Source: Rhizobiales bacterium Ga0077556 (lineage in GTDB: Bacteria > Pseudomonadota > Alphaproteobacteria > Rhizobiales > Phreatobacteraceae). From it: 37,674 nucleotides of DNA. Positions 8,935-30,849 of this stretch are shown piece after piece; position 1 is the first letter of the stretch; every line of letters starts with the position of its first letter. Made by a program: the position numbers and the translations under genes. The notes under the pieces were generated by a model, which made no database searches, was not told the origin of the DNA, and worked only from the letters and a program-made list of their open reading frames with translations. The stretch is taken from NCBI GenBank assembly GCA_001464235.1, contig LNFH01000083.1:1-37674 (forward strand). The letters run 5' to 3'.

Positions 8935-9013
8935 TTTCCGGAATTGTACCGAAGCGTCCCTTGAAGGGCCAGCACCCTCCTGCATGGTGCGGCGACCCAT
9001 GGGAGTTGCAACA

Positions 9014-9877: not shown

Positions 9878-9967
9878 AGGCAGCCTCCGGACTTGGAACG
9901 GTGCGACGGGACCGCGGCCGGCCCGACAGTCCCGACGCGCCGGACCACCCGCCGAGGAGCGACATCC

Positions 9968-10363: not shown

Positions 10364-10368
10364 ACCCG

Positions 10369-10389
10369 CAGGAGGTCGACGACCTCCTG
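10369..10389. repeat. Perfect 10+1+10 inverted repeat, operator or terminator hairpin
   Basis: Arms CAGGAGGTCG and CGACCTCCTG flank a single A. As RNA it would form a 9-base stem with a GAC loop, but no T-run follows, so it would be a poor intrinsic terminator. Its centre is about 60 bases upstream of the start predicted from the sigma-54 promoter at 10414, so a regulator site is at least as likely. Confidence 0.55.
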
Positions 10390-10413
10390 TCCGGGTGACG
10401 CGCGCCGGGCAGT

Positions 10414-10429
10414 CGGCACGACAGTTGCT
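10414..10429 (+). promoter_or_regulatory. Sigma-54 (RpoN) promoter for the hydantoinase gene
   Basis: CGGCACGACAGTTGCT matches the sigma-54 consensus TGGCACR-N4-TTGCW at every defined position except the first. The GG (-24) and GC (-12) elements are correctly spaced. Transcription should begin near 10440, 37 bases before the ATG at 10477. The sigma-54 activator needed for opening is not encoded in this window. Confidence 0.7.
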
Positions 10430-10476
10430 GACCCATCCCTCGCAGCGCCGCGGTGACGGCGCCGAGGAGATGCCCC

Positions 10477-11928
10477 ATGGCAGATTACGACATGATCGTT
10501 CGCGGCGGCACGATCGCGACCGGCACCGACGTCTTCCGGGCCGACCTGGCGATACGGGACGGCGTGGTCGCCGCCCTCGGGGACGACCTCGGGGCGAGCG
10601 GGGAGGTCATCGATGCGTCGGGCCTGCTGATCTTTCCCGGCGGGGTCGATACCCACGTTCATCTCGAACAGACCGGCCTCGGGCCCGAGATGTGCGACAC
10701 CTGGGAAAGCGGCACCGCCTCGGCCGCGGCGGGCGGCACGACAACCGTCGTCTGCTTCGCCTGGCAGCCGAAAGGCGGCTCGCTCGCCGCCGTCGCCGAG
10801 GACTACCGGATCAAGGCGCAGAAGGCCCGGGTCGACTATTCCTTCCACCTCACCGTGACCGACCCGACGCCCGAGGTGGTGGAGGTGGAACTGCCGCAGC
10901 TGATCGCCGAAGGCTGCCGGTCGGTGAAGGTCTTCATGACCTATGACGGCGTCCGCCTCGACGACCGCCAGGTGCTGCGCGTGCTGGCGGCGGCGCGCCG
11001 CAACGAGGCGCTGGTCTGCGTCCACGCCGAGAACCACGACCTCATCGCCTGGCTAACTGAACAACTCGTATCTGCGGAATTAACAACGCCTAAATTTCAT
11101 GCATATGCCAAACCGATGATCGCCGAGCGCGAGGCTGTATACAGGATCATCAGCCTCGCCGAGGCCCTCGACGTCCCCATCCAGGTCTTCCACGTGTCGG
11201 GGGCGCAGTCGGCCGAGGAGATCGCCCGGGCGCAGGCCCGCGGGCTCAAGGTCTGGGGCGAGACCTGCGTCCACTACCTGACGCTGACGGCGGACGACCT
11301 CGACCGGCCGGGCTTCGAGGGCGCCAAGTACATCTTCGGCCCCCCGGCCCGGACCGAGGCCGACCAGGAGGCCCTGTGGGGCTATCTGAAGCGCGGGGTC
11401 ATCGAGGTCGTCTCCTCGGACCATTCGCCCACCCGCTTCGACGATCCGAAGGGCAAGAAGTTCGCTGGCGACCCCGCACCCTTCAACAAGGTGCCGAACG
11501 GCATTCCGGGCCTCGCCGCGCGGCTGCCCGTCCTCTTCACTGAAGGGGTCGCGAAGGGCCGCATCGACCTGCAGACCTTCGTCCGGCTCACCAGTGCCAA
11601 TCCGGCGAAGCTGTTCGGCCTCTTCCCGCAGAAGGGCAGCCTCGCGGTGGGAAGCGACGCCGACTTCGTGATCTGGGACCCGGAAAAGGCCGTGACCCTG
11701 ACCAACGCCCTGATGCACCACGGCGGCGATTACACCCCCTACGAGGGCTACCGGACGCAGGGCTATCCGGTCGCCACGTTCCTGCGCGGACGGAAGGTCT
11801 TCGACGGCGAGACGGTCGTCGGCGCAGCCGGCGGCGGGCGTTTCATCGCGCGCGAGCCCTATCCGATGATCGCGCCGCTCCAGCGCTTCCCGACGCCGTT
11901 CAACGCCGTCGAGGGCACCCTCACCTGA
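10477..11928 (+). CDS. Hydantoinase/dihydropyrimidinase (cyclic amidohydrolase)
   Basis: 483 residues. It opens cyclic amides such as hydantoins or dihydropyrimidines at a binuclear metal site. All ligands are visible: His60 and His62 (DTHVHLEQ), carboxylated Lys151 (SVKVFMTYDG), His183 (CVHAEN), His239 (VFHVSGAQ) and Asp315 (SSDHSP); Tyr156 matches the family's catalytic tyrosine. The start ATG 10477 has GAGGAG upstream. A near-perfect sigma-54 promoter precedes it, suggesting use under nitrogen limitation. The ABC importer genes follow after 91 bases with their own sigma-54 promoter. Codons 193-214 are AT-rich and unlike the rest of the gene. Allantoinase or another ring amidohydrolase activity is possible; the exact substrate is not visible. 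Confidence 0.9.
   Translation: MADYDMIVRGGTIATGTDVFRADLAIRDGVVAALGDDLGASGEVIDASGLLIFPGGVDTHVHLEQTGLGPEMCDTWESGTASAAAGGTTTVVCFAWQPKGGSLAAVAEDYRIKAQKARVDYSFHLTVTDPTPEVVEVELPQLIAEGCRSVKVFMTYDGVRLDDRQVLRVLAAARRNEALVCVHAENHDLIAWLTEQLVSAELTTPKFHAYAKPMIAEREAVYRIISLAEALDVPIQVFHVSGAQSAEEIARAQARGLKVWGETCVHYLTLTADDLDRPGFEGAKYIFGPPARTEADQEALWGYLKRGVIEVVSSDHSPTRFDDPKGKKFAGDPAPFNKVPNGIPGLAARLPVLFTEGVAKGRIDLQTFVRLTSANPAKLFGLFPQKGSLAVGSDADFVIWDPEKAVTLTNALMHHGGDYTPYEGYRTQGYPVATFLRGRKVFDGETVVGAAGGGRFIAREPYPMIAPLQRFPTPFNAVEGTLT
11053..11115 (+). other. AT-rich, rare-codon patch inside the hydantoinase gene
   Basis: About 63 bases drop to roughly 40% GC by hand count in a gene near 70%. They use codons scarce around them (CTA, TTA, ACA, AAA, TTT, CAT, TAT, GTA). 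The protein is continuous through it (residues 193-213, around LTEQLVSAELTTPKFHAYAK). A milder shift extends to GTATACAGG near 11145. The base composition is seen; its cause is unknown. Confidence 0.6.
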
Positions 11929-11938
11929 CGTAACGTCA
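11926..11938. promoter_or_regulatory. TGACGT-A-ACGTCA palindrome between hydantoinase and ABC genes
   Basis: A perfect 6+1+6 inverted repeat that begins on the hydantoinase stop codon and ends 15 bases before the sigma-54 promoter at 11954. Its centre lies about 48 bases upstream of the predicted start, closer than typical sigma-54 enhancer sites. It may be a repressor or accessory factor site. Confidence 0.45.
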
Positions 11939-11953
11939 CATCGACCGCCCGGC

Positions 11954-11969
11954 TGGCACGGCGCTTGCG
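11954..11969 (+). promoter_or_regulatory. Sigma-54 (RpoN) promoter for the ABC importer operon
   Basis: TGGCACGGCGCTTGCG matches TGGCACR-N4-TTGC at every defined base; only the weak final W differs. Transcription should start near 11980, about 40 bases before the binding-protein ATG at 12020. With the promoter at 10414 it makes two consecutive transcription units that appear to share nitrogen-type control. Confidence 0.75.
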
Positions 11970-12019
11970 AGCGTCCCGCTCGAGCGCAACGCCGCTTCCT
12001 CACGCAAGGATGACGCAGA

Positions 12020-13051
12020 ATGGCCTCCCCGACCCGCATCTCGCGCCGTACGTTCGCCGCCGGCTCGCTCCTCGCCGTGACCGGCTTTCCCAACATCGTG
12101 CGCGGCCAGACCCGCGAGATCTTCGTCGGCGGGCCCGCCTCGCCGGGCCTGACGGACATCCTGTTCCCGGTCATCGAGCGCAAGCACAACATGAAGATCC
12201 TCTTCGAGGGGACCAACTCGCTGATCAACCTCGAGAAGATCCGCGCCAACAAAGCCCGGCCGACGATGACGGTGACGATGATGGACGATCCCGTCCTCGT
12301 CCTCGCCGAGCGCGAGAAGGTCATCCGCAAGCTCCCCGCCGACATCACCAACCTCGCCGACGTGCCGGCCGCCGCCAAGCCGCGCGACGCGATGTGGGTG
12401 AACTGGTGCCAGCCGATGTGCTCGTTCTCCTACAACAGCCGCGCGCTGCCGCAGGGGCTCGCCTCCTACAACGACGCCTGGGACCGCAAATTCCGCGAGC
12501 GCATCATCATGATCTCGATGCGCATCACGCAGGCGGTGGCGCCGCTCGTCGCGGCGGCCTCCTATGCCACCAAGAAGCCCCTCGACCAGGCGCTGAAGGA
12601 GTGGGGCGCCGGCATCGAGCGGCTGAAGGAGCTGCGCCCGAACGTCATCCAGGTCTCGTCGAACGCGCCGCAGGCCCAGCAGCTGCTCGAGACGGGCGAG
12701 TGCGACCTCTACATGGCGCCGGATTCCCGCACCACGCTGTTCCGTAAGGCGCAGGGCGCTCCGGTCGATCAGGGCATGCCCAAGGAAGGCGTGCTCGCCA
12801 TGCCCGCCGGCGTCGCGCTGGTCGAGGGCGGCCCGAACCAGGACCTCGGCATCGCCTTCATCAACGAGATGCTGAACCCGGAGACGCAGGCCCTCATCGC
12901 CCGGACCTTCTGGTCGAAGCCGACCAACGCCAAGACGGTTCTGCCGCAGGGCATCTCCTTCCCCGAGCTGATCGCCCTCGACTGGGAGTATTTCGCCGAC
13001 AACCGCAACGCGATGATCGAGCGTTTCGAGCGGGAAGTCTCCTCGCGATGA
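12020..13051 (+). CDS. ABC importer periplasmic binding protein (PotD-like)
   Basis: 343 residues. A twin-arginine signal (ISRRTFAAGS) is followed by a class II binding-protein fold of the polyamine/iron type. Recognisable stretches are RNIVRG-like processing at about residue 30, a lobe 1 segment ending in KARPTMTVTMMDD, and the C-terminal GGPNQDLGIAFINEMLNPET. It should capture a substrate in the periplasm for the downstream ATPase and two permeases. The start ATG 12020 follows AAGGA. It overlaps the ATPase gene by ATGA. Sigma-54 control and the hydantoinase next door suggest a nitrogen-containing substrate, but polyamine, amide or other cargo is not distinguishable. Confidence 0.92.
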   Translation: MASPTRISRRTFAAGSLLAVTGFPNIVRGQTREIFVGGPASPGLTDILFPVIERKHNMKILFEGTNSLINLEKIRANKARPTMTVTMMDDPVLVLAEREKVIRKLPADITNLADVPAAAKPRDAMWVNWCQPMCSFSYNSRALPQGLASYNDAWDRKFRERIIMISMRITQAVAPLVAAASYATKKPLDQALKEWGAGIERLKELRPNVIQVSSNAPQAQQLLETGECDLYMAPDSRTTLFRKAQGAPVDQGMPKEGVLAMPAGVALVEGGPNQDLGIAFINEMLNPETQALIARTFWSKPTNAKTVLPQGISFPELIALDWEYFADNRNAMIERFEREVSSR

Positions 13052-14178
13052 GCCAGCAGGCGACGGCCCTGCCGCCCGCGGCGGAGGCACAGCATGAGCC
13101 GGGATACCTTGCGGTCTCCAACGTCACCAAGCGTTTCGGGGCCGCCACGGTTCTCGACAGCCTGAGCCTCTCCGTCGGACGGGCCGAGTTCGTCTCGCTC
13201 CTCGGCCCGTCGGGCTGCGGAAAGACGACGCTGCTGCGGCTCATCGCCGGTCTCCTCGCGCCCGACCAGGGCGCGATCGAGGTCGGCGGGCGCGATCTCA
13301 CGCGGGTCGCGGCCCACCGGCGCAACATCGGCGTGGTGTTCCAGAACTATGCGCTGTTCCCGCACCTGACGGTCGCGGAGAACATCGCCTACGGCCTCAG
13401 GGCCAAGGGCGTGCCGAAGGGCGAGCAGGCGAAGAAGGTGGCGGATGCCCTCGGCCTCGTGCGCATGGAGGCCTTCGCCGACCGTGCGGTGACGGCGCTC
13501 TCCGGTGGCCAGCAGCAGCGCATCGCGGTGGCCCGCGCCGTGGTGGTGGAGCCCAGCCTCCTGCTTCTCGACGAGCCCTTCTCGGCGCTCGACCGCAAGC
13601 TGCGCGAGACCATGCAGATCGAGCTGCGCCACATCCTGCGCAATCTCGGCATCACGTCGATCTTCGTCACCCACGACCAGGACGAGGCGCTGGTCATGAG
13701 CGACCGCATCGCGGTGATGAACGAGGGGCGGATCGAGCATCTCGGCACGCCCTCGGAGGTCTATGCCCGGCCGAAGTCGCTCTACACCATGGAGTTCGTG
13801 GGCCAGTCGAGCCGCATCGGCGGTGTGGTGACGGGTGGGCGCGACGGGATCGTCGAGATCGACACGCCCTTCGGCCTCGTCCGGGCGCCGGGACATTTCC
13901 TTACCGGCAGCAAGGTGGTGGTCGGCGTCAGACCGGAAGCGATCGCGGCCGGTGAAGGGCCGGCCGGCGAGTACAACACCGTGCGGGGGACCGTCGCGGA
14001 GGTCATCTATTTCGGCTCGCGCACCCTCCTCCACTTCCGCACCGCGCGGGAGGGCGACCGCCTTCACGTCGAGCTCAACCGGCTCCCCGACACGGTCGCC
14101 CCGGGCGTGGAGATGACGGTCCGCTGGCGGCTCGACGACAGCCGGGTCTTTCCCGCACCGGGCGGTGCGGACCGATGA
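13048..14178 (+). CDS. ABC importer ATP-binding subunit (PotA-like)
   Basis: 376 residues. It drives import through the two permeases downstream. Walker A is GPSGCGKT (53-60), the Q-loop lies in VVFQNYALFPHL, the signature is LSGGQ (152-156), Walker B is LLLLDEP (172-178) and the H-loop is in FVTHDQDEAL. A C-terminal TOBE-type beta domain (about 245-370) places it in the CUT/PotA group. It starts within the binding-protein stop (ATGA) and ends within the next start (ATGA), so the operon is translationally coupled. Confidence 0.95.
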   Translation: MSQQATALPPAAEAQHEPGYLAVSNVTKRFGAATVLDSLSLSVGRAEFVSLLGPSGCGKTTLLRLIAGLLAPDQGAIEVGGRDLTRVAAHRRNIGVVFQNYALFPHLTVAENIAYGLRAKGVPKGEQAKKVADALGLVRMEAFADRAVTALSGGQQQRIAVARAVVVEPSLLLLDEPFSALDRKLRETMQIELRHILRNLGITSIFVTHDQDEALVMSDRIAVMNEGRIEHLGTPSEVYARPKSLYTMEFVGQSSRIGGVVTGGRDGIVEIDTPFGLVRAPGHFLTGSKVVVGVRPEAIAAGEGPAGEYNTVRGTVAEVIYFGSRTLLHFRTAREGDRLHVELNRLPDTVAPGVEMTVRWRLDDSRVFPAPGGADR

Positions 14179-15056
14179 CCCTCGCCCGGGACGATCTGGC
14201 GGTGATGCCGGCGGCGGCGCCCGCGCGCTGGACCTTCGACGCCAAGGCGCTGATCGCGGTGCCCGGGCTGGTCTTCATGGCGCTCGCCTTCGCCGTGCCG
14301 GTGCTCATGCTGGTCGGCGACAGCTTCGTCGACCGCGACGGCTTCAGCCTCGCCGGCTACCGCAAAGTGCTCGGCGATCCCTACTACATCGGCATCATCG
14401 GCAATTCGCTGCAGCTCGCCTGTATCACCACCGCCGTATGTCTCGCCGTCGGTTACCCCGCCGCCTGGGCGCTCGCCCGCATCCGCGGCGCCTGGCAGGT
14501 GATCCTCTTCGCCCTGATCTTCCTGCCGCTGACCGTCTCCATCGTCGTGAAGACCTTCGGCCTGACGATCATGATGCGCCGCGACGGCATCATCAATTTC
14601 CTGCTCGTCAATCTCGGCTTCATCGAGCGGCCGATGCGGCTCGTCTTCACCGAGTTCAGCCTCTATTTCGGCATGGTCAACGTCTTCCTGCCCTTCATGA
14701 TCCTGCCGCTCTACTCGGTCATGCGCATGCTGGATCCGCGGCTGCTGGATGCCTCCGCCTCCCTCGGCGCCGGCCCGGTCCACACCTTCCTGCGCGTGAC
14801 GCTGCCGCTGACCATGCCCGGCATCATCGCCGGCGGGACGCTCGTCTTCTCCATCTCGGTGGCGGCCTATGTCACGCCCGGGCTGCTCGTCGGCGACCGC
14901 TTCATGACCATGTCGCAGGTGATGGCCAAGGCCTATCTCAACATCCGCGACTTCCAGCTGGGGGCGAGCATGGCGGTGATCATGCTGGTCATCTCCGCAG
15001 CGCTCATCCTCGCCTCCTCCTACCTCGTCCGCACGCCGGGCGGAGAGAGGCGCTGA
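14175..15056 (+). CDS. ABC importer permease (PotB-like)
   Basis: 293 residues with six predicted membrane spans. The cytoplasmic ATPase-docking (EAA) loop appears as LLDASASLGAGPVHTFLRVT, followed by LPLTMPGIIAGG. The N-terminal 25 residues are polar and alanine-rich. It overlaps the ATPase gene by ATGA. It pairs with the next permease to form the channel. The residue order suits the polyamine/opine/spermidine permease group rather than the branched-chain or peptide groups. Confidence 0.93.
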   Translation: MTLARDDLAVMPAAAPARWTFDAKALIAVPGLVFMALAFAVPVLMLVGDSFVDRDGFSLAGYRKVLGDPYYIGIIGNSLQLACITTAVCLAVGYPAAWALARIRGAWQVILFALIFLPLTVSIVVKTFGLTIMMRRDGIINFLLVNLGFIERPMRLVFTEFSLYFGMVNVFLPFMILPLYSVMRMLDPRLLDASASLGAGPVHTFLRVTLPLTMPGIIAGGTLVFSISVAAYVTPGLLVGDRFMTMSQVMAKAYLNIRDFQLGASMAVIMLVISAALILASSYLVRTPGGERR

Positions 15057-15059
15057 CCC

Positions 15060-15851
15060 ATGGCCCTGTTCGGCTCGCTCTTCTGCCGCCTCGTCCTCGG
15101 CTTGGTCATCGCCTTCCTGTTCCTGCCGATCCTCATCGTGCTGACGGTGTCGTTCTCCTCCTCGGCGGTCTTCGCCTTCCCGCCGCCGGGCTTCTCGCTG
15201 CGCTGGTACGCCTCCCTCGGCAAGGCGGATTCGATGTTGCAGGCGGTCTGGCTCTCGACGCAGATCGCCGCCCTCTCCACCGCCATCTCGCTGGTGCTCG
15301 GCACGCTCTGCGCCATCGCCATCACGCGAGGCATGATCCCCGGCGCCAAGGCGGTGGCGACCTTCATGGCCTCGCCCCTCATGCTGCCGGGGCTGGTGCT
15401 CGGCATCGCCTTCCTGCAGGCGGCGCGCGACTTCGGCCTGCGCGATACCTACTCGACGCTGCTGATCGCCCACGTCGTCATCACCATGCCCTTCATCATG
15501 CGCACGGTGCTGGCGAGCCTGTCGCTGTTCGACTTCGCCATGGTGGACGCCGCTCGCATGCTCGGCCGCTCCTACCCTGCGGCGCTGTGGACCGTGCTGG
15601 TGCCGAACATCCTGCCGGGCTTCGTCAGCGGCGGGCTCTTCGCCTTCATCGCCTCCTTCGACAACTATCCCGTCTCGATCTTCCTCGTGGACGTGCGCAC
15701 CAAGACGCTGCCGATCCAGCTCCTCAACCAGGTGGAGATGTCGCCGGATCCGACGGTCGCCGCCATCTCGGCGCTCCTCATCCTCGGCACCATCGCCGCC
15801 CTCATCGTCTGCGACCGGCTGGTGGGCCTGAAGCGGATGGCCTCGATCTAG
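15060..15851 (+). CDS. ABC importer permease (PotC-like)
   Basis: 263 residues, six predicted spans. The EAA loop is VDAARMLGRSYPAALWTVLV followed by PNILPGFVSGG. It starts 3 bases after the first permease stop. The C-terminal region (FIASFDNYPVSIFLVD) is characteristic of PotC-type subunits. Together with the three genes before it, it completes a binding-protein-dependent importer (order D, A, B, C). Confidence 0.93.
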   Translation: MALFGSLFCRLVLGLVIAFLFLPILIVLTVSFSSSAVFAFPPPGFSLRWYASLGKADSMLQAVWLSTQIAALSTAISLVLGTLCAIAITRGMIPGAKAVATFMASPLMLPGLVLGIAFLQAARDFGLRDTYSTLLIAHVVITMPFIMRTVLASLSLFDFAMVDAARMLGRSYPAALWTVLVPNILPGFVSGGLFAFIASFDNYPVSIFLVDVRTKTLPIQLLNQVEMSPDPTVAAISALLILGTIAALIVCDRLVGLKRMASI

Positions 15852-19430: not shown

Positions 19431-22313
19431 ATGACAGCGTTCGTCCAACTTCGGTCGAGGCATCATCCCATGGCGCAGTCGCAGGTCAGCGCGCAGAAAT
19501 CCGTCCGGCGTCTCATTGCTCTGGCATCCGCTCTCGGCTTCGCCGTGATCGGGATGATCTGGACCGCCGTGGAAATGGACATCCGCCAGGAGAGGGCCTT
19601 CGCCCGGCGGACGGCGAGCCAGACCGCGCAGAACTATGCGCGCCTGTTCGACGAGCACATCCGCCAGGCGATCAACGAGACCGACAACACGATCAAGTTC
19701 ATCCGCCAGGACTATCTGCGTGCAGGAGGTGCATTCGACCTGCAGGCCTGGGTGACGAACCAGTACAGCTTCAAGGAGCTGGCGCTGCAGTTCACCATCA
19801 TCGGCGCCGACGGCCGGATGGAGACGACGACCACGGCCGGGGCGACCCCGCGGGTCGACCTGAGCGACCGGGAGCACTTCCGCGTGCACGTCGATTCGTC
19901 GCAGGACATCCTGTTCATCAGCAAGCCGGTTCTCGGCCGGGCATCGGGACGCTGGTCGATCCAGCTGACGCGGCGGATCAGCGATGCCGACGGCAACTTC
20001 CGCGGGGTCATCGTCGCCTCGCTGGACCCGTACTACCTGTCGCGCTTCTACGAGACCATCGACCTCGGCAAGGGCGGCGGCATCGCGGTCGTCGGCCGTG
20101 ACCGGGTCGTGCGGGCCATGGCGGGCCTGACCCGCCAGGCGCTCGGCAGCCGCTACGAAGGCGAAGCCGCCCTGTCCCGGACCCTGACCGATGGCCTCGT
20201 CGTGGAGATGGGCGAGAACCAGGAGCGGGGCCGGGCGACGGCCTACAGGGCGATCAACGACTGGCCGCTCATCGTCGCGGTGCGCGTGGACGACACCGAT
20301 GCGCGCGAGCGCCGGATCGCGGCCGCAGCCCAGATGCGGCTGATCGCGGCGGGACTGACCGTCGGCGTCCTCGGCGTCATCCTGCTCGGCATCGCCTACT
20401 GGCGGCGCTTCGGAGCCGCGCTCGCCGCCCTCACCCGGAGCAAGGCCGCCGCCCGGGCGGCCACCAGCGAACTTGCGCTGACCCTGAACAACATGGCGCA
20501 GGGCATCCTGATGGTCGACGGCAACGGTCACGTCGCGGTGGTCAACCAGAACGCCCTCGACCTCCTCGGGCTCCCGGCCACCTTCACGCGCCAGGGCTTC
20601 CCTCTCGAGGTCCTGCTTCTCCACGAACGCGCCACCGGCGAAAGCATCGTGGTGGACGAGCATGGCGGCGCGCCGCCCGATCCCGATCACCTCGCGGTGC
20701 GCGAGCACGTCCGCGGAGATACGGTCCTGGAGATCTGCACGCGCCACCTGCCCGGCGGCGGCTTCGTCCAGACCTACACGGACATCACCGAACGCAAGCG
20801 CTTCGAGACGGCGCTCCGCGATGCCCGCGACGTCGCCGAGAAGGCGTCGCAGGTGCGGACCGCCTTCCTCGCCACCATGAGCCACGAGATCCGCACGCCG
20901 CTGAACGGCATCATCGGCATGTCGTCCATCCTGGAGACGACCGAACTCACGGCCCAGCAGCGCGGCCACCTCAAGACCATCCATGAATGTGGCGAAGCGC
21001 TGCTCGACATCGTCAACGACGTTCTCGACTACGCAAAGCTCGATTCCGGAGCGATCCAGCTCGAACAGACGGCCGTGGACGTGCGCGGCCTGGCCACTTC
21101 GGTCAAGGAGATGCTCGGGCCGCGGGCGCAGGAGAAGAAGCTCAGCTTCGACGTCGTCATCGCCGACGACGTTCCCGCCTCGATCGAGACCGACGGCACA
21201 CGCATCCGGCAGGTTCTCATCAACTTGGTGGCCAATGCGGTGAAGTTCACCCTGACGGGCGGCATCATCGTCTCGGTCGGTTCGCGCACCCTGTCAGGGG
21301 GCCGCCCAGGCCTGCGCTTCTCCATCATCGATTCAGGCATCGGCCTCGCCGAGGGTTCGCACGTCCACCTCTTCAAGGAGTTCTCGCAGGTCGACGCCTC
21401 CATCACCCGCAGGTTCGGCGGCACGGGACTGGGACTTGCCATCTGCAAGCGCATCGTCGACGCCATGGGCGGCGACATCGGTGTCGAAAGCACCCTCGGC
21501 AAGGGCTCGGTCTTCTGGTTCGACGTGCCGGCACCCGAGGCGAAGCCTGCCGCCCCGCCGGCGGAACGGTCGGCGCGCACCAGACTGCCGAACCAGCTTA
21601 GCGTGCTTCTCGTCGAGGACAATGCGGTGAACCAGCAGGTGGCGACGCTGCTGCTCACCGCCATGGGCCACACGGTCACCGTCGCGGACCACGGTCAGGT
21701 CGCGCTCGACCTCGCCGGGCGCCAGGCCTTCGACGTCATCCTGATGGACATGCACATGCCGGTCATGGACGGGGTCCGGACCGCCAAGGCCCTTCGCGCC
21801 GGCAGCGGACCGAACGCCCACACCGCCATCATCGGGCTGACGGCCAACGCCTTCGCCTCGGACCGGCAGGCCTGCCTCGACGCGGGCATGGACGACTTCC
21901 TCGCCAAGCCCGTCACGCGCGCCAAACTCGAGGCGGTCGTGGCGCGGCATTCGTCGGCTCCGGCGCCCGCCGAACAGGCCGATCGGGGCGGGGTGGACCT
22001 CTCCGTTCGCAACTCCCTGTTCGAGGCCATCGGTCCGGAGGTCGGGCACAGGCTCGTCGAGACCTTCGTGGACGAGGCGCGCCGCCTGCTGGTCGACATC
22101 CGCACCGCAGCCGGCAACGGCGACGTCACGGCGCTCGAGGGCCTCCTCCACCAGATCAAGGGCGCCGCAGCCAATCTCGGCCAGGTCGGGATCGTCGGCC
22201 TGACGTCCACCCCGCCCGCAGACCTCGCCCAGCCCGTCGCCATGGCGCGGTTCGCCGACCGGCTGGAAGCCTATCTGGCGGCCGAGGAACGGGCGCTGCA
22301 CAGGGCCGCATAG
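19431..22313 (+). CDS. Hybrid sensor histidine kinase with receiver and Hpt domains
   Basis: 960 residues. The order is: transmembrane span (about 27-48), periplasmic Cache-like sensor (about 60-295), second span (about 303-325), a PAS-type segment (about 345-455), HisKA with His485 in [11 protein letters not shown], an ATPase domain with [14 protein letters not shown] and GGTGLGL, a receiver with Asp773 ([11 protein letters not shown]) and Lys826, and a C-terminal Hpt with His907 ([13 protein letters not shown]). It therefore carries a full His-Asp-His relay in one chain. The start ATG 19431 has GGGGAAG at the right distance; ATG 19470 is possible. It is divergent from the HD-GYP regulator. 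Cache domains bind small metabolites; the ligand is unknown. Confidence 0.94.
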
Positions 22314-22465: not shown

Positions 22466-22924
22466 GTGGCGAAACTCAACATCAACGGCCAGGTGGTCGA
22501 CGTCCAGGCGGCGGAGGACACGCCGCTGCTCTGGGCCCTGCGCGAGCACGTGGGCCTCACCGGCACGAAATACGGCTGCGGCATCGCCGCCTGCGGCGCC
22601 TGCACGGTGCATATCGACGGCCAGGCGGTGCGCTCCTGCGCGATGCCGCTGAGCGCGGTCACCCCCGACCAGAAGATCGTCACCATCGAGGGCCTGTCGC
22701 CGAACGGCATGCACCCGATCCAGGTGGCCTGGCGCGACCTCGACGTTCCCCAGTGCGGCTATTGCCAGTCCGGCATGATCATGGCCGCCGCCGCCCTCCT
22801 GGCCGAGAAGCCGAACCCGACGGACGAGGACATCGACAATGCGATGACCAACATCTGCCGGTGCGGCACCTACAACCGCGTCCGCGCCGGCATCAAGCAG
22901 GCCGCCGCGAACCGCCAGGGCTGA
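22466..22924 (+). CDS. [2Fe-2S] subunit of a molybdenum hydroxylase (IorA type)
   Basis: 152 residues. It passes electrons from the molybdenum centre. The ferredoxin-like cluster ligands are C38, C43, C46 and C58 ([17 protein letters not shown]), and the helical-domain cluster ligands are C97, C100, C131 and C133 ([10 protein letters not shown] and [10 protein letters not shown]). This is the full set for the small subunit of isoquinoline 1-oxidoreductase/aldehyde oxidase enzymes. GTG 22466 is the likely start, with AGGGAG six bases upstream; the frame is open further back without family resemblance. There is no signal peptide, so it would be carried out with the Tat-exported large subunit, whose gene starts 11 bases later. 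Confidence 0.93.
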
Positions 22925-22935
22925 GGGAGGCCGAC

Positions 22936-25110
22936 ATGACGCTCATCGAGACCACGACCACCTCCCGCCGCGCCGTCCTCAAGGCCGCCGCCGGCCTCAC
23001 CGTCGGCTTCTGCCTGCCGACCGACGCCTTCGCCCAGCAGCCGGCGCCCGCCGCCACTCCCGAGATCAACGCCTGGGTCGTCATCCGCCCCGACGACACG
23101 GTGGTGCTGCGCATGGCCCGCTCCGAGATGGGCCAGGGCACCCGTACCGGCCTCTGTCAGATGATCGCCGAGGAGCTGCACTGCGACTGGTCGAAGATCG
23201 TCACCGAATACGTCACGCCCGGCCAGTCGCTGGCGCGCAACCGGGCCTGGGGCGCCTTCCTCACCGCCGGCAGCCAGGGCATCCGCCAGAGCCACGACTA
23301 TGTCCGCCGCGGCGGCGCCACCGCCCGCGTCATGCTGATCCAGGCCGCAGCCGATGCCTGGGGCGTTCAAGCGGCGCAGTGCACCGCCAAGGACAGCGTC
23401 ATCACTCACGCGGCTTCCGGCCGGTCCGTGCGTTACGGGCAGGTTGCGGCGGCGGCGGCGCGCCTGACGCCGCCCGCCAACGTGCCTTTGAAGGACCCGA
23501 AGGACTGGACCGTCATCGGCACCTCGGTGAAGCGCCTCGATACGGCGGCGAAGACCACCGGCGCGCTCGTCTACGGCTCGGACCTGAAGATGCCGGGCAT
23601 GCTGGTGGCCGTGCCGAAGGAGTGCCCGGTCTTCGGCGGTAAGGTCGCTTCCTTCGACGCCGCCAAGGTTTCCTCCATGCCGGGCGTGCGCCACGTGCTC
23701 AAGGTCGCCGATACCGCGGTGGCCGTGGTGGCCGACACGTTCTGGCAGGCCAAGACGGCCCTCGACGCCCTGCCCGTCACCTGGGACTACGGCCCCAACC
23801 GGTCTGTGTCCTCCGAGACCATCGCGGCGCAGCTGCGCGAGGGGCTGGACGCGCCGGAGGCCTTCGTCGGCAATACCAACGGCGACGCCCGCGCCGCCAT
23901 TGCCGGCGCCGCCCGCAAGATCGAGGCGGTCTACGACTATCCCTTCCAGAACCACGCGCCGATGGAACCGATGAACGCCACGGTGGTGTGGACGCCGACC
24001 CGCTGCGACGTCTGGTGCCCGACGCAGAACGGCGAGGCGGCGCTGGCCGCCACCGCCCAGGCGGCCGGCCTGCCGCAGACGGCCTGCGACGTCCACCGCG
24101 TCGACCTCGGCGGCGGCTTCGGCCGGCGCACCACCCACGACTGGCTGATCCAGGCGGTCACCATCGCCAAGCAGGTCCCCGGCGTCCCGATCAAGACGCA
24201 GTGGACGCGCGAGGAGGACATGGTGCAGGGGCGCTACCACCCCGTGACCATGGCCAAGATGACCGGCGGCCTCGACGCCCAGGGCAACCTGGTCGGGCTG
24301 CACATGCGGATTTCCGGCCAGTCGATCCTCTCCTACGTCTTTCCCACGGCGCTGCAGAGCGGCCGTGACCCCGTGCAGTTCCAGGGGCTCAACGCCGGCG
24401 GCAACGACAGCCAGATCGGCTATTCGTTCCCCAACCTGCTGATCGACCACGCCATGCGGAACACCCACGTGCCGCCGCATTTCTGGCGGGGCGTGAACCA
24501 CAACCAGAACGCCATCTACCTGGAGTGCTTCCTCGACGAACTCGCCCATGCGGCGGGCCAGGACCCCCTCGCCTTCCGCCGCAAGCTGATGGGCAATCAT
24601 CCCAAGCACCTCGCGGTGCTCAACGCGGTGGCCGAGAAGATCGGCTGGGACAGGCCGCCGCCGGCCGGCGTGCATCGCGGCATCGCCCAGCAGATGGGCT
24701 TCGGCAGCTACGTGGCAGCCGCCGCCGAGGTCTCGGTGGACGCGCAGGGCAAGCTGAAGGTCCACCGCATCGTCGCGGCGACCGATTGCGGCGTCGCCGT
24801 CAACCCGCGCCAGATCGAGATGCAGGTGGAGGGCTCCTTCGTCTACGGCCTTTCCGCCCTGCTCTATGGCGCCTGCACGGTGAAGGACGGGCAGATCGTC
24901 GAGACCAATTTCGACAGCTACAACGTCCTGCGCATGGATGAGATGCCGAAGGTCGAGACCATCGTCATGCCCTCAGGCGGGTTCTGGGGCGGCGTCGGCG
25001 AGCCGACCATCATGGTGGCGGCGCCGGCGGTGCTGAACGGCATCTTCGCCGCCACCGGCAAGCGCATCCGCTCGGTGCCGCTGAAGGACCAGGACCTCAG
25101 GCGGGCGTGA
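22936..25110 (+). CDS. Molybdopterin-binding large subunit, Tat-exported (IorB type)
   Basis: 724 residues. A twin-arginine signal (TTSRRAVLKAAAGLTVGFCL) is followed by the two-part molybdopterin-binding fold of xanthine-dehydrogenase-family hydroxylases. Visible landmarks are MGQGTRTGLCQMIAEEL, GGGFGRR, PHFWRGVNHNQNAIYLECFL and the C-terminal GGVGEPTIM, whose Glu689 is the expected catalytic base. These enzymes hydroxylate N-heterocycles or oxidise aldehydes; the substrate is not readable. There is no FAD subunit, as expected for the periplasmic Ior type, which usually hands electrons to a cytochrome c. Its stop overlaps the soxX start (GTGA), so the cytochrome gene that follows is the obvious partner. 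Confidence 0.93.
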   Translation: MTLIETTTTSRRAVLKAAAGLTVGFCLPTDAFAQQPAPAATPEINAWVVIRPDDTVVLRMARSEMGQGTRTGLCQMIAEELHCDWSKIVTEYVTPGQSLARNRAWGAFLTAGSQGIRQSHDYVRRGGATARVMLIQAAADAWGVQAAQCTAKDSVITHAASGRSVRYGQVAAAAARLTPPANVPLKDPKDWTVIGTSVKRLDTAAKTTGALVYGSDLKMPGMLVAVPKECPVFGGKVASFDAAKVSSMPGVRHVLKVADTAVAVVADTFWQAKTALDALPVTWDYGPNRSVSSETIAAQLREGLDAPEAFVGNTNGDARAAIAGAARKIEAVYDYPFQNHAPMEPMNATVVWTPTRCDVWCPTQNGEAALAATAQAAGLPQTACDVHRVDLGGGFGRRTTHDWLIQAVTIAKQVPGVPIKTQWTREEDMVQGRYHPVTMAKMTGGLDAQGNLVGLHMRISGQSILSYVFPTALQSGRDPVQFQGLNAGGNDSQIGYSFPNLLIDHAMRNTHVPPHFWRGVNHNQNAIYLECFLDELAHAAGQDPLAFRRKLMGNHPKHLAVLNAVAEKIGWDRPPPAGVHRGIAQQMGFGSYVAAAAEVSVDAQGKLKVHRIVAATDCGVAVNPRQIEMQVEGSFVYGLSALLYGACTVKDGQIVETNFDSYNVLRMDEMPKVETIVMPSGGFWGGVGEPTIMVAAPAVLNGIFAATGKRIRSVPLKDQDLRRA

Positions 25111-25547
25111 GGATCGTCCTCGCCGCGGTCGCGCTCCTCGGTCTCGCCGCAGCCGCGGCGGGGCAGGAGGTCGCGCCCTTCGTCGTCTCCGGCGACGGCA
25201 TCGCGGCGCCGCTCGGCGGGCTCGCCGGCTCGGCCGAGCGCGGCGGGCGCATCGTCCGCAACCGGGAGACGGCCAATTGCCTGATCTGTCACACGATCCC
25301 CGATCCCGCCGAGGCGTTCATGGGCGAGGTCGGGCCGCCGCTCGCGGGGGTCGGCGCCCGGCTCACGCCCGGCCAGATCCGGCTGCGGCTGATCGATCCG
25401 ACGCTCGCCAACCCTGACGCGGTGATGCCGGCCTATCACCGTGTCGCCGGCCTCGCCCATGTCGATGCCCGCTGGCGCGGCCGGCCGGTGCTCTCCGCCC
25501 AGGACATCGAGGACGTGGTCGCCTATTTGTCCGCCCTGAAGGAGTGA
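25107..25547 (+). CDS. soxX: SoxX-like monohaem cytochrome c
   Basis: 146 residues from GTG 25107, overlapping the hydroxylase stop by 4 bases. A Sec signal peptide (to about residue 20) precedes a single haem site, CLICH (Cys58, Cys61, His62). Met107 in NPDAVMPAYHR is the likely sixth ligand. The flanking GPPLAGVGARLTPGQIRLRL and the C-terminal DIEDVVAYLSALK fit SoxX. With SoxA it would form the SoxXA complex, which oxidatively couples a sulfur substrate to the SoxY cysteine. Here it could also accept electrons from the hydroxylase. Confidence 0.9.
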   Translation: MRIVLAAVALLGLAAAAAGQEVAPFVVSGDGIAAPLGGLAGSAERGGRIVRNRETANCLICHTIPDPAEAFMGEVGPPLAGVGARLTPGQIRLRLIDPTLANPDAVMPAYHRVAGLAHVDARWRGRPVLSAQDIEDVVAYLSALKE

Positions 25548-25550
25548 CCC

Positions 25551-26033
25551 ATGCCCCGACCTCCATCCGACCGGCCGGATCTCCTGACGCGTCGCGGCGC
25601 CATCGCGGGCGCGGCGGCCTGCGTCGCCCTCGTCCCCGCGGCCGCGTCGGGCCAGGCGGCGCCCGCGGAGACCTTCGCCGCCGCCGAACGGGCGATCCTC
25701 GCCGGCCGTGAGCCCGCGGCGGCCGGCGTGGCGATCGAGATGCCGCAGCTCTCCGAGAACGGCAATGCGGTGGACATCGCCGTCCGGGTGGACAGCCCGA
25801 TGAGCGCCGACGATCACGTCGCCCGCATCCATCTCCTCGCGGACAAGAACCCGGTCCCGCGGGTCGCGACCTTCCACATCGGCCCGCAGGCCGGCCGTGC
25901 CGACGTCGCCACGCGCATCCGCCTCGCGGAGACGCAGACCATCGTCGTCCTCGCCGAGACGAGCCGCGGCGTCGTCCATCGCGGCAGCCGCGAGGTCATC
26001 GTCATTCTCGGCGCCTGCGTGGACGGAGGCTGA
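25551..26033 (+). CDS. soxY: SoxY-like sulfur carrier protein with an altered C-terminal arm
   Basis: 160 residues. A twin-arginine signal (LLTRRGAIAGAAACVALVPA) is followed by the SoxY beta-sandwich (MPQLSENGNAVDIAVRVDSP, then HLLADKNPVPRVATFHIGP). The chain ends ILGACVDGG, so the carrier cysteine (Cys156) is retained but the usual terminal GGCGG is replaced by GACVDGG. That places it four residues from the end instead of two. In Sox systems the intermediate is covalently held on this cysteine. It starts 3 bases after soxX with AAGGAG upstream and is followed 3 bases later by soxZ. Confidence 0.92.
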   Translation: MPRPPSDRPDLLTRRGAIAGAAACVALVPAAASGQAAPAETFAAAERAILAGREPAAAGVAIEMPQLSENGNAVDIAVRVDSPMSADDHVARIHLLADKNPVPRVATFHIGPQAGRADVATRIRLAETQTIVVLAETSRGVVHRGSREVIVILGACVDGG

Positions 26034-26036
26034 GCC

Positions 26037-26366
26037 ATGGCCAATGCCACCATCCCCGCCCGCATCACCATGCCGGCCGAGGCGAAGCGCGGCGAGATCG
26101 TCGAGATCCGCGTTCTCGCCCGCCATCCCATGGAGCGGGCCATCGATGCGCCCGGCCTCAGGCCCGTCGCGCGCAAGATTATCCACACCCTGCGTGTCAG
26201 CCAGGAGGGGCGCGAGTTCTTCCGCATGGACCTCTCGTCCGGCATCGCGGCCAATCCCTATGTCGCTTTCACGCTCCGCGCCGAGCGGAGCGGCGAACTC
26301 GTCTTCGAATGGATCGAGGACGGCGGCGTCACCTACAAGCGCCGCCAGGGCCTCACGGTGACATGA
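26037..26366 (+). CDS. soxZ: SoxZ-like partner of SoxY
   Basis: 109 residues, the usual SoxZ length, without a signal peptide; SoxZ is normally exported in complex with SoxY. Family stretches are visible: PARITMPAEAKRGEIVEIRV, HPMERA, and near the end GELVFEWIEDGG with the final KRRQGLTV. It starts 3 bases after soxY, and its stop overlaps the soxA start (ATGA), which confirms tight coupling of the Sox genes. Confidence 0.94.
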   Translation: MANATIPARITMPAEAKRGEIVEIRVLARHPMERAIDAPGLRPVARKIIHTLRVSQEGREFFRMDLSSGIAANPYVAFTLRAERSGELVFEWIEDGGVTYKRRQGLTVT

Positions 26367-27112
26367 GGGCGGCGATCGCCCTCGCCCTGGTCCTCGCCGC
26401 GGCGGCGGCCGGCGCCGGCGAGGTGCGCGCGCCGGCGACGTTCCTGTCGCCGGACCTCCGGGCGCTGCAGGACGATCCCTCGCGGCATCCCGGCTGGCTG
26501 TGGGTGGATTCCGGCGAGGCGCACTGGCGGGCGCCGCCGGCCGGCGGACGACCGTCCTGCCAGGGCTGCCACGGAGACATCGGCGGGATGCGCGGCGTCG
26601 CCACCCGCTATCCGCAGGTGGCCGACGACGGGCGCCTTCTCAATCTCGAAGGCCGCATCGAGACCTGCCGCAGCCGCCATCAGCAGGCGCCGGCCTTCGG
26701 CTACGAAAGCGAACCGCTCCTGTCGCTCACCGCCGCCGTCGCGCTGCAGTCGCGCGGGCTGCCGACGGCTGTCGCCACCGACGGACCGGCCGCGTCCTTC
26801 GTCGCCGAGGGACGGCGGCTGTTCGAGACGCGTATGGGCCAGCTCAACCTCTCCTGCGCCCAGTGCCACGAGGCGAATGTCGGCCGTCGCCTGCGCGGCG
26901 ACGTCATCTCCAGCGGGATCGGCACCGGATTCCCCGCCTACCGGCTCGAATGGAACACCATGGGGTCGCTGCACCGCCGGCTGCGGGCCTGCTCGCTCGG
27001 CGTCAGGGCGACGCAGTTCTCGCTGGGTTCGCCGGAATATCTCGCGCTCGAGCTCTATCTCGCGGCACGGGCGCAGGGCCTGCCGATCGAGGCGCCCGGC
27101 CTCAGGCGCTAG
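26363..27112 (+). CDS. soxA: SoxA-like dihaem cytochrome c
   Basis: 249 residues with a Sec signal to about residue 20. There are two haem sites, CQGCH (66-70) and CAQCH (165-169). Each is followed at the expected distance by a cysteine that serves as axial ligand: Cys102 (EGRIETCRSRH) and Cys210 (LHRRLRACSLG). The second corresponds to the persulfide active-site cysteine of SoxA, so the SoxXA catalytic residue is retained. It begins inside the soxZ stop. It is the last gene of the run; a 304-base gap follows. No soxB or soxCD is adjacent. Confidence 0.93.
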   Translation: MRAAIALALVLAAAAAGAGEVRAPATFLSPDLRALQDDPSRHPGWLWVDSGEAHWRAPPAGGRPSCQGCHGDIGGMRGVATRYPQVADDGRLLNLEGRIETCRSRHQQAPAFGYESEPLLSLTAAVALQSRGLPTAVATDGPAASFVAEGRRLFETRMGQLNLSCAQCHEANVGRRLRGDVISSGIGTGFPAYRLEWNTMGSLHRRLRACSLGVRATQFSLGSPEYLALELYLAARAQGLPIEAPGLRR

Positions 27113-29022: not shown

Positions 29023-30021
29023 TCAGGCCGGGACCGGGCGCGCCGGCGCGGGGGATGCCGGCGGGGCCGCGCCGAACTGCATCCGGTAGTCGTGGGGACT
29101 GACGCCGAGCCGCCGCCGGAAGGCCCGGCGCATCCGTTCCTCATCGAGGAAGCCGCACTTGCGGGCGATGTCCTTGATGCTGTGACGCGTCTCCTCCAGC
29201 GCGCGGCGGGCGGCCTCCAGGCGCATGTCCTCCACCACCTTCGCCGGCGTGCGGCCGGTGCGCGCGGTGTAGAGCCGGGCGAAGGTCCGGGGGCTCATGG
29301 CGACGCGCCGGGCCAGCGCCTCCACCCTGAGGTCCGCCTCCAGGTGGTCCTCCATCCAGCGGTGCAGCGGCTCGAAACCGTCATCGTCGGCCTCCTGCAG
29401 GGCCAGCGGAACGCTGAACTGCGCCTGGCCTCCGGAGCGCTTGAGGAACACGACCAGCCGCTTGGCGACGCGGATCGCCTCGGCGTGGCCGCGGTCCTCC
29501 TCGATCATGGCCAGCGCCAGATCGATGCCGGCTGTGACCCCGGCCGAGGTCCAGATCGAGCCGTCCCGCTCGAAGATGGCGTCGGGAGACACGGTGAGTT
29601 CGGGGTGGCGGTCCTGCAGAAGCTGGCACGAGCCCCAGTGGGTGACGACCTTGCGCTCCTTCAGGAGCCCGGCCGAGGCGAGGACGAAGGCGCCCGTGCA
29701 GACGGAGCAGAGGCGCCGGGTGAGGCCGGCATTGTCCGCCAGCCAGCGGACGAGGTCCGGATCCTTCGCCGCCTCGTGCACGCCGGGGCCGCCGACGACG
29801 AGGAGCGTGTCCACATCGCCGACCTCGTCCAGCGACCGCGTCATGATCTCGAGCCCGGACGAGGTGCGCACGAGGCCGCCGGCGACGGAGGCGACCGTCA
29901 GGCGATAGGGCGCCGCCTCACGCGGAGCCGTCTCGCAGGAGATCTCGAACGCCGCCAGTGGACCCGACAGGTCCAGGATGAGGGCGTCGGGAAAGACCAC
30001 AAAGACGACGTGACGCTGCAC
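29023..30021 (-). CDS. GlxA-type regulator: DJ-1/PfpI domain plus AraC helix-turn-helix
   Basis: 332 residues. The N-terminal half (to about 185) is a DJ-1/PfpI fold with DLSGPLAAFEI and the nucleophile-elbow-like SVCTGAFVLASAGLL. The C-terminal half (about 215-320) is an AraC/XylS domain with LARRVAMSPRTFARLYTART and IKDIARKCGFLDEERMRRAF. GTG 30021 was chosen because AAGGA lies 7 bases upstream; a TTG at 30036 is the only other candidate and lacks a ribosome site. It is divergent from a second DJ-1 family gene, suggesting it regulates that gene in response to the same ligand class. Confidence 0.93.
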   Translation of the reverse strand: MQRHVVFVVFPDALILDLSGPLAAFEISCETAPREAAPYRLTVASVAGGLVRTSSGLEIMTRSLDEVGDVDTLLVVGGPGVHEAAKDPDLVRWLADNAGLTRRLCSVCTGAFVLASAGLLKERKVVTHWGSCQLLQDRHPELTVSPDAIFERDGSIWTSAGVTAGIDLALAMIEEDRGHAEAIRVAKRLVVFLKRSGGQAQFSVPLALQEADDDGFEPLHRWMEDHLEADLRVEALARRVAMSPRTFARLYTARTGRTPAKVVEDMRLEAARRALEETRHSIKDIARKCGFLDEERMRRAFRRRLGVSPHDYRMQFGAAPPASPAPARPVPA

Positions 30022-30138
30022 CGGCCTGTCCTTCAAGGGGGTCGCATTCCCGCGTGGCAGGAAAGGAGGGCAGAATGTCGTTTCCGCCGCCTCCTGTCAT
30101 GGCCAAAGTGACCGCCTGCATCACGGACGGAGGCCATC

Positions 30139-30849
30139 TTGACGACATCCCCTCTGGAGATCGGGCTGCTGTTCTTCCCCGGCATGACCCAGCTCGACGT
30201 GACCGGCCCCTTCGAGGTGCTGGCGCGGCTGCCGGGGGCGCGCATGCACCTCCTGTGGAAGCGCATCGAGCCGATCACCAGCGACGTCGGCCTCATCCTC
30301 ATGCCGACCACGACCTTCGCGGACTGCCCCCGGCTGGACGTGCTCTGCGTCGGCGGCGGTCCCGGCCAGATCGCCGTGATGGACGATCCCGAGGTCATGG
30401 CCTTCGTCGCGAAAGCCGGCGCCTCGGCCCGCTACGTCACCTCCGTATGCGCCGGGAGCCTGATCCTTGCCGGTGCGGGTCTGCTGGACGGCTATCGCTC
30501 GGCCTGTCACTGGCTGTCGCGCGACCAGCTCGCCCCCCTCGGCGCCATTCCCGTGGCGGAGCGCATCGTCGTCGACCGCAACCGCATCTCCGGCGGCGGC
30601 GTGACGGCGGGCATCGACTTCGCGTTCCAGCTGGCGGCCGAACTGTGCGGCGAGGAGGTCGCGCGGCGGCTCCAGCTGCTGCTCGAATACGACCCGCAGC
30701 CGCCCTTCGACACCTCCGAGCGCAGCGCGACGCCCGAAGCGCTCGGCGCCATCCGCCAGGCGGCGAGACCCATGCTCGAAGCGCGGCGGGAGGCAGGGGA
30801 GCGCGCCCTCGCCCGCCGCAGCGCCGCGTCCGCCGACGCGCCGTCCTAG
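30139..30849 (+). CDS. DJ-1/PfpI family protein, isonitrile-hydratase-like
   Basis: 236 residues, starting with TTG at 30139 behind a strong GGAGG. The whole chain resembles isonitrile hydratase (InhA), which converts isonitriles to N-substituted formamides. Matching regions are LLFFPGMTQLDVTGPFEVLA (Asp20), RYVTSVCAGSLILAGAGLLD (nucleophile Cys104) and GGGVTAGIDFAFQLAAELCG. The residue after Cys104 is Ala rather than the Thr I recall in the Pseudomonas enzyme and see in the neighbouring regulator (SVCTGA), so activity might differ. It is divergent from that regulator with about 117 bases between. Confidence 0.85.
   Translation: MTTSPLEIGLLFFPGMTQLDVTGPFEVLARLPGARMHLLWKRIEPITSDVGLILMPTTTFADCPRLDVLCVGGGPGQIAVMDDPEVMAFVAKAGASARYVTSVCAGSLILAGAGLLDGYRSACHWLSRDQLAPLGAIPVAERIVVDRNRISGGGVTAGIDFAFQLAAELCGEEVARRLQLLLEYDPQPPFDTSERSATPEALGAIRQAARPMLEARREAGERALARRSAASADAPS

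Follow-up and report, generated by a model that had tools for sequence, protein, structure and literature searches.

The window analysed here (37,674 nt) is the entire contig LNFH01000083.1 (C83) of Rhizobiales bacterium Ga0077556, whose 4.4-Mb assembly (G000) is 89 % complete. At positions 22466–27112 of its forward strand there are six co-directional genes, which join a molybdenum (Mo) hydroxylase of the xanthine-oxidase family to the sulfur-oxidation genes soxX, soxY, soxZ and soxA. As read from the sequence, these genes are separated by 11, −4, 3, 3 and −4 bases, and the gene order and gap values given in the initial annotation proved exact to the base by direct reading and by comparison with NCBIfam and Pfam. 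Domains SoxY, SoxZ, SoxA-TsdA cytochrome, MoCoBD_1, MoCoBD_2, Fer2 and Fer2_2 all passed their Pfam gathering scores, and there is neither soxB nor soxC within the operon (22466–27112).

The first gene (22466..22924; all six on the + strand) has a GTG start and codes for a 152-aa [2Fe-2S] small subunit of the xanthine-oxidase family, with Fer2 and Fer2_2 domains. No signal peptide was seen in its 152-aa translation, and it is presumably carried across the membrane by its Mo partner, which has a leader for twin-arginine translocation (Tat). This partner, the molybdopterin-binding large subunit (22936..25110, 724 aa), contains domains MoCoBD_1/2 and the twin-arginine sequence SRRAVLK at residues 10–16; all 80 relatives described below have a twin arginine within the first 40 residues. 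Its GVGE motif, containing Glu689 (codon 25000..25002), which we take to be the catalytic glutamate of the family, is present in 80/80 relatives and invariant in two further alignments. A structure model of this subunit (predicted local distance difference test, 80.9; predicted template modelling score, 0.82) is that of a xanthine-oxidase-family large subunit. The closest solved protein is the large subunit of the membrane-bound aldehyde dehydrogenase of Gluconobacter oxydans (8gy3_C; phmmer 6e-81), to which the model aligns with Z 39.6 and a root mean square deviation of 3.0 over 675 of the 724 residues, with 29 % identity. The four domains, the GVGE motif and the fold agree with the xanthine-dehydrogenase family to which the initial annotation assigned the enzyme. 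We could not derive a substrate class from the NCBIfam equivalogs, because none reached its cut-off with the Mo subunit (best match, 167 bits vs 780).

Gene soxX (25107..25547) overlaps the Mo gene by 4 bases and codes for a mono-haem c-type cytochrome (CLICH) that scores 72 bits with TIGR04485 (cut-off 61). The product of soxY (25551..26033), of the AACIE-arm type and with the C-terminus LGACVDGG, scored higher with TIGR04487 (131.4 bits, cut-off 172) than with TIGR04488, the model for true SoxY (100.7 bits, cut-off 125), and is under both cut-offs. Its carrier-arm cysteine, Cys156 in GACVDGG, is encoded at 26016..26018. Gene soxZ (26037..26366, 109 aa) scored 66 bits with PF08770 and 61 bits with TIGR04490, under the cut-off of 76. 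Finally, soxA (26363..27112, 249 aa; TIGR04484, 201 bits vs a cut-off of 110) codes for a protein with two CxxCH motifs (CQGCH and CAQCH), and sequence comparison predicts that Cys210 (codon 26990..26992), situated in RRLRACSLGVR with a Gly at +3, is its haem-ligating catalytic cysteine.

Species-representative genomes were scanned with an alignment of 16 Mo-subunit sequences as query, and the best 80 loci, of more that exist, were analysed. They belong to Phreatobacter, Roseomonas, Bosea, Methylobacterium/Methylorubrum, Microvirga, Bradyrhizobium, Mesorhizobium, Duganella, Pseudoduganella, Ramlibacter, Rubrivivax, Methylibium and other genera; the closest named relatives among the matches listed are Phreatobacter metagenome-assembled genomes (MAGs), with 90–94 % identity in the Mo subunit, so that the window probably comes from a Phreatobacter-like bacterium. 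Genes soxX, soxY, soxZ and soxA follow the Mo gene in that order in 70 of the 80 best loci, in some of them after a cytochrome and/or flavoprotein gene. In the other ten the available sequence stops 64–1009 bases past the Mo gene; in five of these the following gene of the module is already visible, namely soxX for L070 and L073 and the cytochrome for L095, L098 and L112, and three have at most 225 bases left. The linkage in 70 loci, with the other ten ending near the Mo gene, thus rules out that the adjacency is due to chance. By similarity, a gene for a flavoprotein of the flavocytochrome c sulfide dehydrogenase type occurs in or beside 37 of the 70 complete clusters, and the added cytochrome c and flavoprotein genes are inserted between those for the Mo subunit and SoxX, follow soxA or lie elsewhere in the vicinity; two of the flavoproteins were checked for domains and contain PF21706 and PF09242. 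Neither of these extra genes lies beside the window operon, and 29 of the 80 loci likewise consist of the six genes alone, a similarity search with two references having revealed no additional cytochrome gene.

An independent class sample of 289 genomes gave a similar picture. Up to three Mo candidates were scored per genome, so that the number of bearers of a main-clade Mo subunit is at least 24, comprising 22 matches of at least 1143 bits plus G122 and G147, where the gene is split by contig ends. According to the initial annotation, the idea of a distinct system would weaken if the two halves of the operon were found apart. The Mo half is adjoined by soxX, soxY, soxZ and soxA in 19 of the 24 bearers and contig ends fall between the halves in two (G093 and G071); the halves are present in different places of the genome in another two (G091 and G127), and the last, G066, has no SoxY match. 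The variant SoxY is thus retained in 23 of the 24. Conversely, wherever the census described below (73 places) contains a main-type variant SoxY set, the genome in question also has the Mo gene at some position. In G011 (contig C53, L173) the Mo subunit is present as two overlapping open pieces with an internal TGA, and in G183 (contig C4) there is one TAG in the matched stretch; these internal stops reflect either decay or sequencing error.

The carrier arm of SoxY has the sequence xAC[IVLT][DE] in 70/70 complete clusters of the named relatives. There are 89 SoxY places in the class sample, and we examined the arm in 73 of them; the 16 omitted all score less than 69 bits. SoxY linked to SoxB had the arm GGCGG in 27/27 cases, whereas among the 28 linked to a Mo enzyme 27 had an Ala before the Cys (the exception being L159), 20 had C-x-[DE] and none had GGCGG; no SoxY was linked to both SoxB and a Mo enzyme. 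For the other 18 SoxY the sequence fetched contained neither SoxB nor a Mo enzyme, and four of these, with a C-x-[DE] arm, are at split or separated clusters. In a tree of SoxYZ with the arm removed, the 31 rows of the main type were set apart from the rest by a branch with a support of 97 in the Shimodaira–Hasegawa-like approximate likelihood ratio test (SH-aLRT); this and the other trees are quick trees with SH-aLRT support only. The window SoxY, which ends in GACVDGG instead of the canonical GGCGG, shares this clade (branch at 97) and its arm type with members over the TIGR04487 cut-off; this cut-off is passed in 15 of the 289 class genomes but not by the window protein itself. The strict linkage, the SoxYZ branch, the private arm motif and the absence of SoxB from many bearers (see below) sustain the distinct system claimed in the initial annotation. 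Besides, three soxXYZA sets (L224, L227 and L229) with neither SoxB nor a Mo enzyme in the fetched stretch have an arm GACS at the extreme end of SoxY, and are possibly yet another SoxB-free Sox type.

Main-type SoxA retained both CxxCH motifs and residues Arg194, Arg206, Cys210 and Arg215 in 96/96 sequences, and these four residues are equally invariant in 14 SoxB-linked SoxA. To judge from the sequence, the Cys-ligated catalytic haem of the canonical SoxXA is therefore preserved. The position at Cys+3 is occupied by Gly in 97/97, vs Gln (8), Asn (5) or Asp (1) in the 14 SoxB-linked proteins. In TsdA, thiosulfate-binding residues sit around the catalytic cysteine, and the side facing the second substrate is described as larger in SoxA, as the SoxY arm requires (PMC4423706). 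The joint change of the SoxY arm and of the SoxA site would fit a different docking of the arm. The initial annotation had suggested a tree to find out if SoxXYZA form a clade of their own, which occurred with SoxYZ but not with SoxA: the Mo-linked SoxA are not one clade with respect to the SoxB-linked ones (two changes), although a long row (L183) makes the details unsure. The SoxA tree, unlike that of SoxYZ, does not therefore indicate a private origin.

SoxB (E ≤ 1e-60) was searched for in 18 of the 24 class bearers, chosen by their TIGR04487 score: 15 exceed the cut-off and three rank directly below it. None was found in 17 of the 18 genomes, nor in 12 of the 13 among them with at least 90 % completeness and at most 5 % contamination. 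Outside this set, G000, G127 and G044 have SoxB, and G039, G128 and G066 were not searched for it. Among 48 named bearers SoxB was present in 21 and absent in 27, and it was not found in any of the 80 related stretches as fetched. Because SoxB is missing from 17/18 class and 27/48 named bearers, the module does not depend on it, though many bearers have the canonical system too. The SoxY of the cluster is the sole SoxY match in 14 of the 18 class genomes; SoxC was over its cut-off in two of 19 genomes (G000 and G122), with weaker matches of the SoxC family in nine more.

The statement in the initial annotation that soxB and soxCD are absent holds for the operon and is false for the genome. Contig C4 of G000 contains soxB (847 bits) beside canonical soxX, soxA, soxY and soxZ, and at the edge of contig C5 there is a soxC fragment that scores over the cut-off. 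The initial annotation also held that a full sox cluster elsewhere serving the same SoxYZ would weaken the idea of a distinct system; such a cluster exists here, but it has its own SoxYZ, with an arm of the GGCGG type. Contig C194 (G000:C194:1-13606; L042) carries a third SoxYZ, whose arm is GGCLT. Immediately before it there is a flavoprotein gene of the flavocytochrome c type, which is cut by the contig start and whose product has 63 % identity to a Roseomonas homolog. On the other strand from this SoxYZ, at 1916–2908, there is a SoxC-family match of 194 bits, below the cut-off; this locus is another incomplete Sox set in the genome.

In a tree of the Mo subunit, the main clade has a support of 100 and is apart from 23 homologs without nearby Sox genes, which are class-genome matches not beside a detected SoxY, some with flanks cut by contig ends. 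When 101 main-clade sequences were compared with 14 other homologs, eight of them otherwise Sox-linked, 63 positions had a conservation of 95 % or more in the former and were shared by no more than 35 % of the latter. These private positions include W105, E367, C357, C384, N521, N523, F683 and T691, and comprise the FWRGVNxN segment and the surroundings of GVGEPTI. Other Sox-linked Mo subunits are found in several separate places of the tree among the non-Sox homologs, with five label changes forced by starred branches, although some branches are long.

The gene orders of the divergent loci that pair Mo hydroxylases of this class with SoxYZ vary: FeS-Mo-Y-Z-A in L156, Y-Z-A-FeS-Mo in L172, FeS-Mo-FeS-Mo-Y-Z-cytochrome-flavoprotein-X-A in L157, and Mo-FeS divergent from X-Y-Z in L160 and L161. 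Loci L158, L159 and L228 contain Y-Z with FeS-Mo and no SoxX or SoxA in the 14–16 kb fetched, their whole genomes not having been searched for these two. The arms are also diverse, with GACS in L158, SGCI in L159, GACEG in L228, GACGG in L160 and L161, GACIE in L172 and GACAY in L173, and an internal GACVE, with a C-terminal extension, in L157; the Mo hydroxylases of these eight loci have 28–52 % identity. The hydroxylase and SoxYZ are thus a recurrent pair, linked at several separate places of the tree. In a Rokubacteria MAG (L087), the FeS-Mo pair (9538–12947; 66–70 % identity) has upstream a fused SoxYZ with arm GGCVG (3867–4259).

Our preferred reading, which we hold tentatively and at somewhat less than even chances, is that the operon encodes a SoxB-independent periplasmic module of carrier plus hydroxylase that oxidizes an organosulfur intermediate bound to SoxY, with chemical steps deduced from the protein families. 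SoxXA, with a Cys-ligated haem site that is intact by sequence, would attach a compound with a thiol or sulfane group oxidatively to the cysteine on the SoxY arm, a loading step that follows published descriptions of SoxXA (PMC5748708 and PMC4423706). The Tat-exported, aldehyde-oxidase-like Mo enzyme would then oxidize the carbon part of the arm-bound compound, probably an aldehyde-like or heteroaromatic carbon, which are the ones attacked by the xanthine-oxidase family. For this reason we set aside the idea that a SoxY-bound methyl (sp3) carbon is hydroxylated. The [2Fe-2S] subunit would pass the electrons on to SoxXA and to further cytochromes of the c type and, where present, the pair resembling flavocytochrome c sulfide dehydrogenase would clear the sulfane sulfur remaining on SoxY. 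Since no sulfonate would be made, SoxB would be unneeded. With slightly less confidence, we suggest as a general possibility that in Alpha- and Betaproteobacteria organic sulfur is loaded by SoxXA on a dedicated SoxY arm, for the Mo enzyme to oxidize its carbon skeleton, and that such a system was assembled more than once.

Several observations weigh against this proposal. The xanthine-oxidase family is not known to act on carrier-bound or sulfur substrates. The attempt to infer a substrate from neighboring genes failed, because no flank gene family occurs in more than 11 of the 80 loci; an ABC ATPase is among the commonest, together with genes that, by their loci of origin, are specific to the genus Bradyrhizobium or Duganella. 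The linkage may also have real exceptions, since L119 and L087, with 490 and 769 bases left after the Mo gene, show no module gene at the usual spacing. G066, on a single contig and 100 % complete, keeps FeS-Mo-soxX-soxA and has no SoxY match genome-wide; this copy (L167, G066:C1:2348000-2366000; 6849–10916) is a natural deletion of SoxY. The module can decay, as the Mo subunit is probably a broken copy in plasmid pNgVX of Neorhizobium galegae (L040, 7689–9792), where the Mo gene appears as two tblastn pieces with no annotated Mo protein, next to annotated Sox genes. Lastly, the sequence marks are not universal: two main-type class clusters have no acidic residue at Cys+2 of the arm (L058, AACVI; L164, GACIV), and SoxA from three divergent (M2) loci is without the Gly at +3.

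The initial annotation offered two readings, SoxX/SoxA replacing the usual cytochrome subunit of the hydroxylase or a substrate bound to the SoxYZ carrier. Under the former, the operon would encode an ordinary periplasmic aldehyde or heterocycle hydroxylase using SoxX/SoxA as its cytochrome c subunit, with SoxYZ as a passenger or with a side job. This agrees with an aldehyde dehydrogenase being the closest solved relative of the Mo subunit, with the 29 loci having only the six genes and no other detected cytochrome, and with the composition of the G066 locus. The weight of G066 is lessened, however, by its Mo branch, with a length of 0.36 vs 0.15 in the neighbor, which may indicate altered selection after the loss of SoxY. 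We consider this reading unlikely, because SoxYZ and its arm cysteine are kept in 70/70 complete clusters and the catalytic Cys and Arg residues of SoxA in 96/96, because flavoproteins accompany 37 of the 70 clusters, and because hydroxylases of the same class are found beside SoxYZ without SoxXA in the fetched stretch (L158, L159 and L228). The recurrence of the pair of hydroxylase and SoxYZ in divergent loci therefore favors a carrier job over SoxXA being a mere electron acceptor, with G066 as a counter-example, and the reading with a carrier-bound substrate seems to fit best with the sequence evidence.

This same recurrence, with SoxYZ-type carriers paired with several Mo-subunit lineages of one class, could instead suggest a job directed to the enzyme rather than to its substrate. 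SoxXA and SoxYZ, with or without the flavocytochrome, would then supply, repair or protect a sulfur-sensitive Mo site (e.g., Mo=S), or scavenge reactive sulfur that would poison it; the xanthine-oxidase family needs a terminal Mo=S ligand. The SoxYZ-like carrier of dehydrogenases dependent on pyrroloquinoline quinone has been discussed in terms of maturation, redox control or protection (PMC12997753). We give this explanation only a small chance: the 23 sampled non-Sox homologs have no Sox gene in their fetched flanks, from which it follows only that Sox genes are dispensable for many enzymes of this class, and sulfido insertion into Mo enzymes is known to occur in the cytoplasm, before export. 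More improbable still is that the four sox genes are a spare set for oxidation of thiosulfate or sulfide, which might assist the canonical one and would share no more than a transcript with the hydroxylase, the two being unrelated. SoxXA keeps the residues for thiosulfate-type chemistry, on the TsdA model (PMC4423706), and SoxB also occurs in G000 and in 21 of the 48 named bearers. Nevertheless, the linkage is too strict for a coincidence, GGCGG never occurs as the arm of a Mo-linked SoxY, the census contains no SoxY with links to both SoxB and a Mo enzyme, and SoxB is absent from most of the class and named bearers searched (17/18 and 27/48). Likewise, thiosulfate oxidation by Bradyrhizobium diazoefficiens needs only soxY1, from the canonical locus, and not soxY2 (PMC5748708). 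Strain SZCCT0449, labeled as B. diazoefficiens, has three SoxY: one on the SoxB contig, one linked to the Mo gene by its coordinates, and a third. That soxY2 may be the Mo-linked soxY is a lead only. The report on the sox genes of Bosea deals with the canonical cluster (PMC5894208).

The proposed carrier-plus-hydroxylase module resembles several known systems in part. It shares with canonical Sox (SoxXA-SoxYZ-SoxB, with or without SoxCD) the SoxX, SoxY, SoxZ and SoxA homologs, the SoxA cysteine and arginines and an arm cysteine near the C-terminus of SoxY, but has neither SoxB nor SoxC in the operon, an arm xAC[IVLT][DE] instead of GGCGG, Gly instead of Q/N/D at Cys+3 of SoxA, and a Mo enzyme of the xanthine-oxidase family in place of SoxC. 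TIGR04487, named "SoxY-related AACIE arm protein", is the best SoxY model for the window and is matched with 212 and 215 bits by L039 and L120, which contain the same operon; nonetheless, the window SoxY, with arm GACVDGG, is under the cut-off of 172 and the model names one protein only. Our literature searches on TIGR04487 found no pathway or function for it. The Gluconobacter oxydans aldehyde dehydrogenase (8gy3) likewise has a small subunit with two [2Fe-2S] clusters, a Tat-type large subunit and the GVGE motif, but the window Mo subunit has only 29 % identity with it, belongs to a clade of its own supported at 100 and is followed by soxXYZA instead of by an adjacent cytochrome subunit. The isoquinoline 1-oxidoreductase type is a further periplasmic enzyme of this family. 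In the SoxYZ-like carrier associated with quinoprotein dehydrogenases (TIGR04557) a Sox-type carrier also accompanies a periplasmic dehydrogenase for organic substrates, in a role that is unsettled (PMC12997753); that carrier is a fused SoxYZ, whereas the window has separate genes whose products score 66 (SoxY) and 30 bits (SoxZ) vs a cut-off of 140. Many clusters contain a flavoprotein with FCSD_central and FCSD-flav_bind domains together with a small cytochrome c, as in flavocytochrome c sulfide dehydrogenase, which we take to be equivalent to FccAB/SoxEF, but this pair is missing from the window operon, and in this genome a homolog lies with the other SoxYZ on C194. In bins of SAR324, this dehydrogenase is found beside SoxYZ only, an arrangement described as a possible novel mechanism (PMC4782131). 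We found no description of the module in the open-access literature, which was partially surveyed, with subscription papers and preprints outside its scope; thus, as far as found, the SoxY paralog family was already named by NCBI curators and the linked, SoxB-free module of hydroxylase and carrier is not described.

Other genes surround the module. Window positions 12020–15851 contain a set for an ATP-binding cassette (ABC) importer, comprising a solute-binding protein (SBP_bac_8), an ATPase with TOBE_2 and two permease-like open reading frames, directly preceded by an amidohydrolase gene (10453–11928). At 29023–30849 there are two genes with DJ-1/PfpI domains on opposite strands, one of them with an AraC-type DNA-binding domain. 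In a plasmid of Methylobacterium sp. NMS14P (L039), the methanethiol S-methyltransferase gene mddA (21368–22102) is situated about 8 kb from the module.

Genes soxX, soxY, soxZ and soxA are commonly taken to indicate a capacity for thiosulfate oxidation, and counts of these genes can lead to the mis-annotation of sulfur oxidation in Bradyrhizobium, Methylobacterium, Roseomonas, Bosea, Duganella and their kin. The arm motif of SoxY and the residue at Cys+3 of SoxA are simple sequence marks that separate the two kinds of SoxXYZA. The module is a directly testable case for a role of Sox carriers outside inorganic sulfur, a question that it shares with the SoxYZ carriers linked to quinoproteins.

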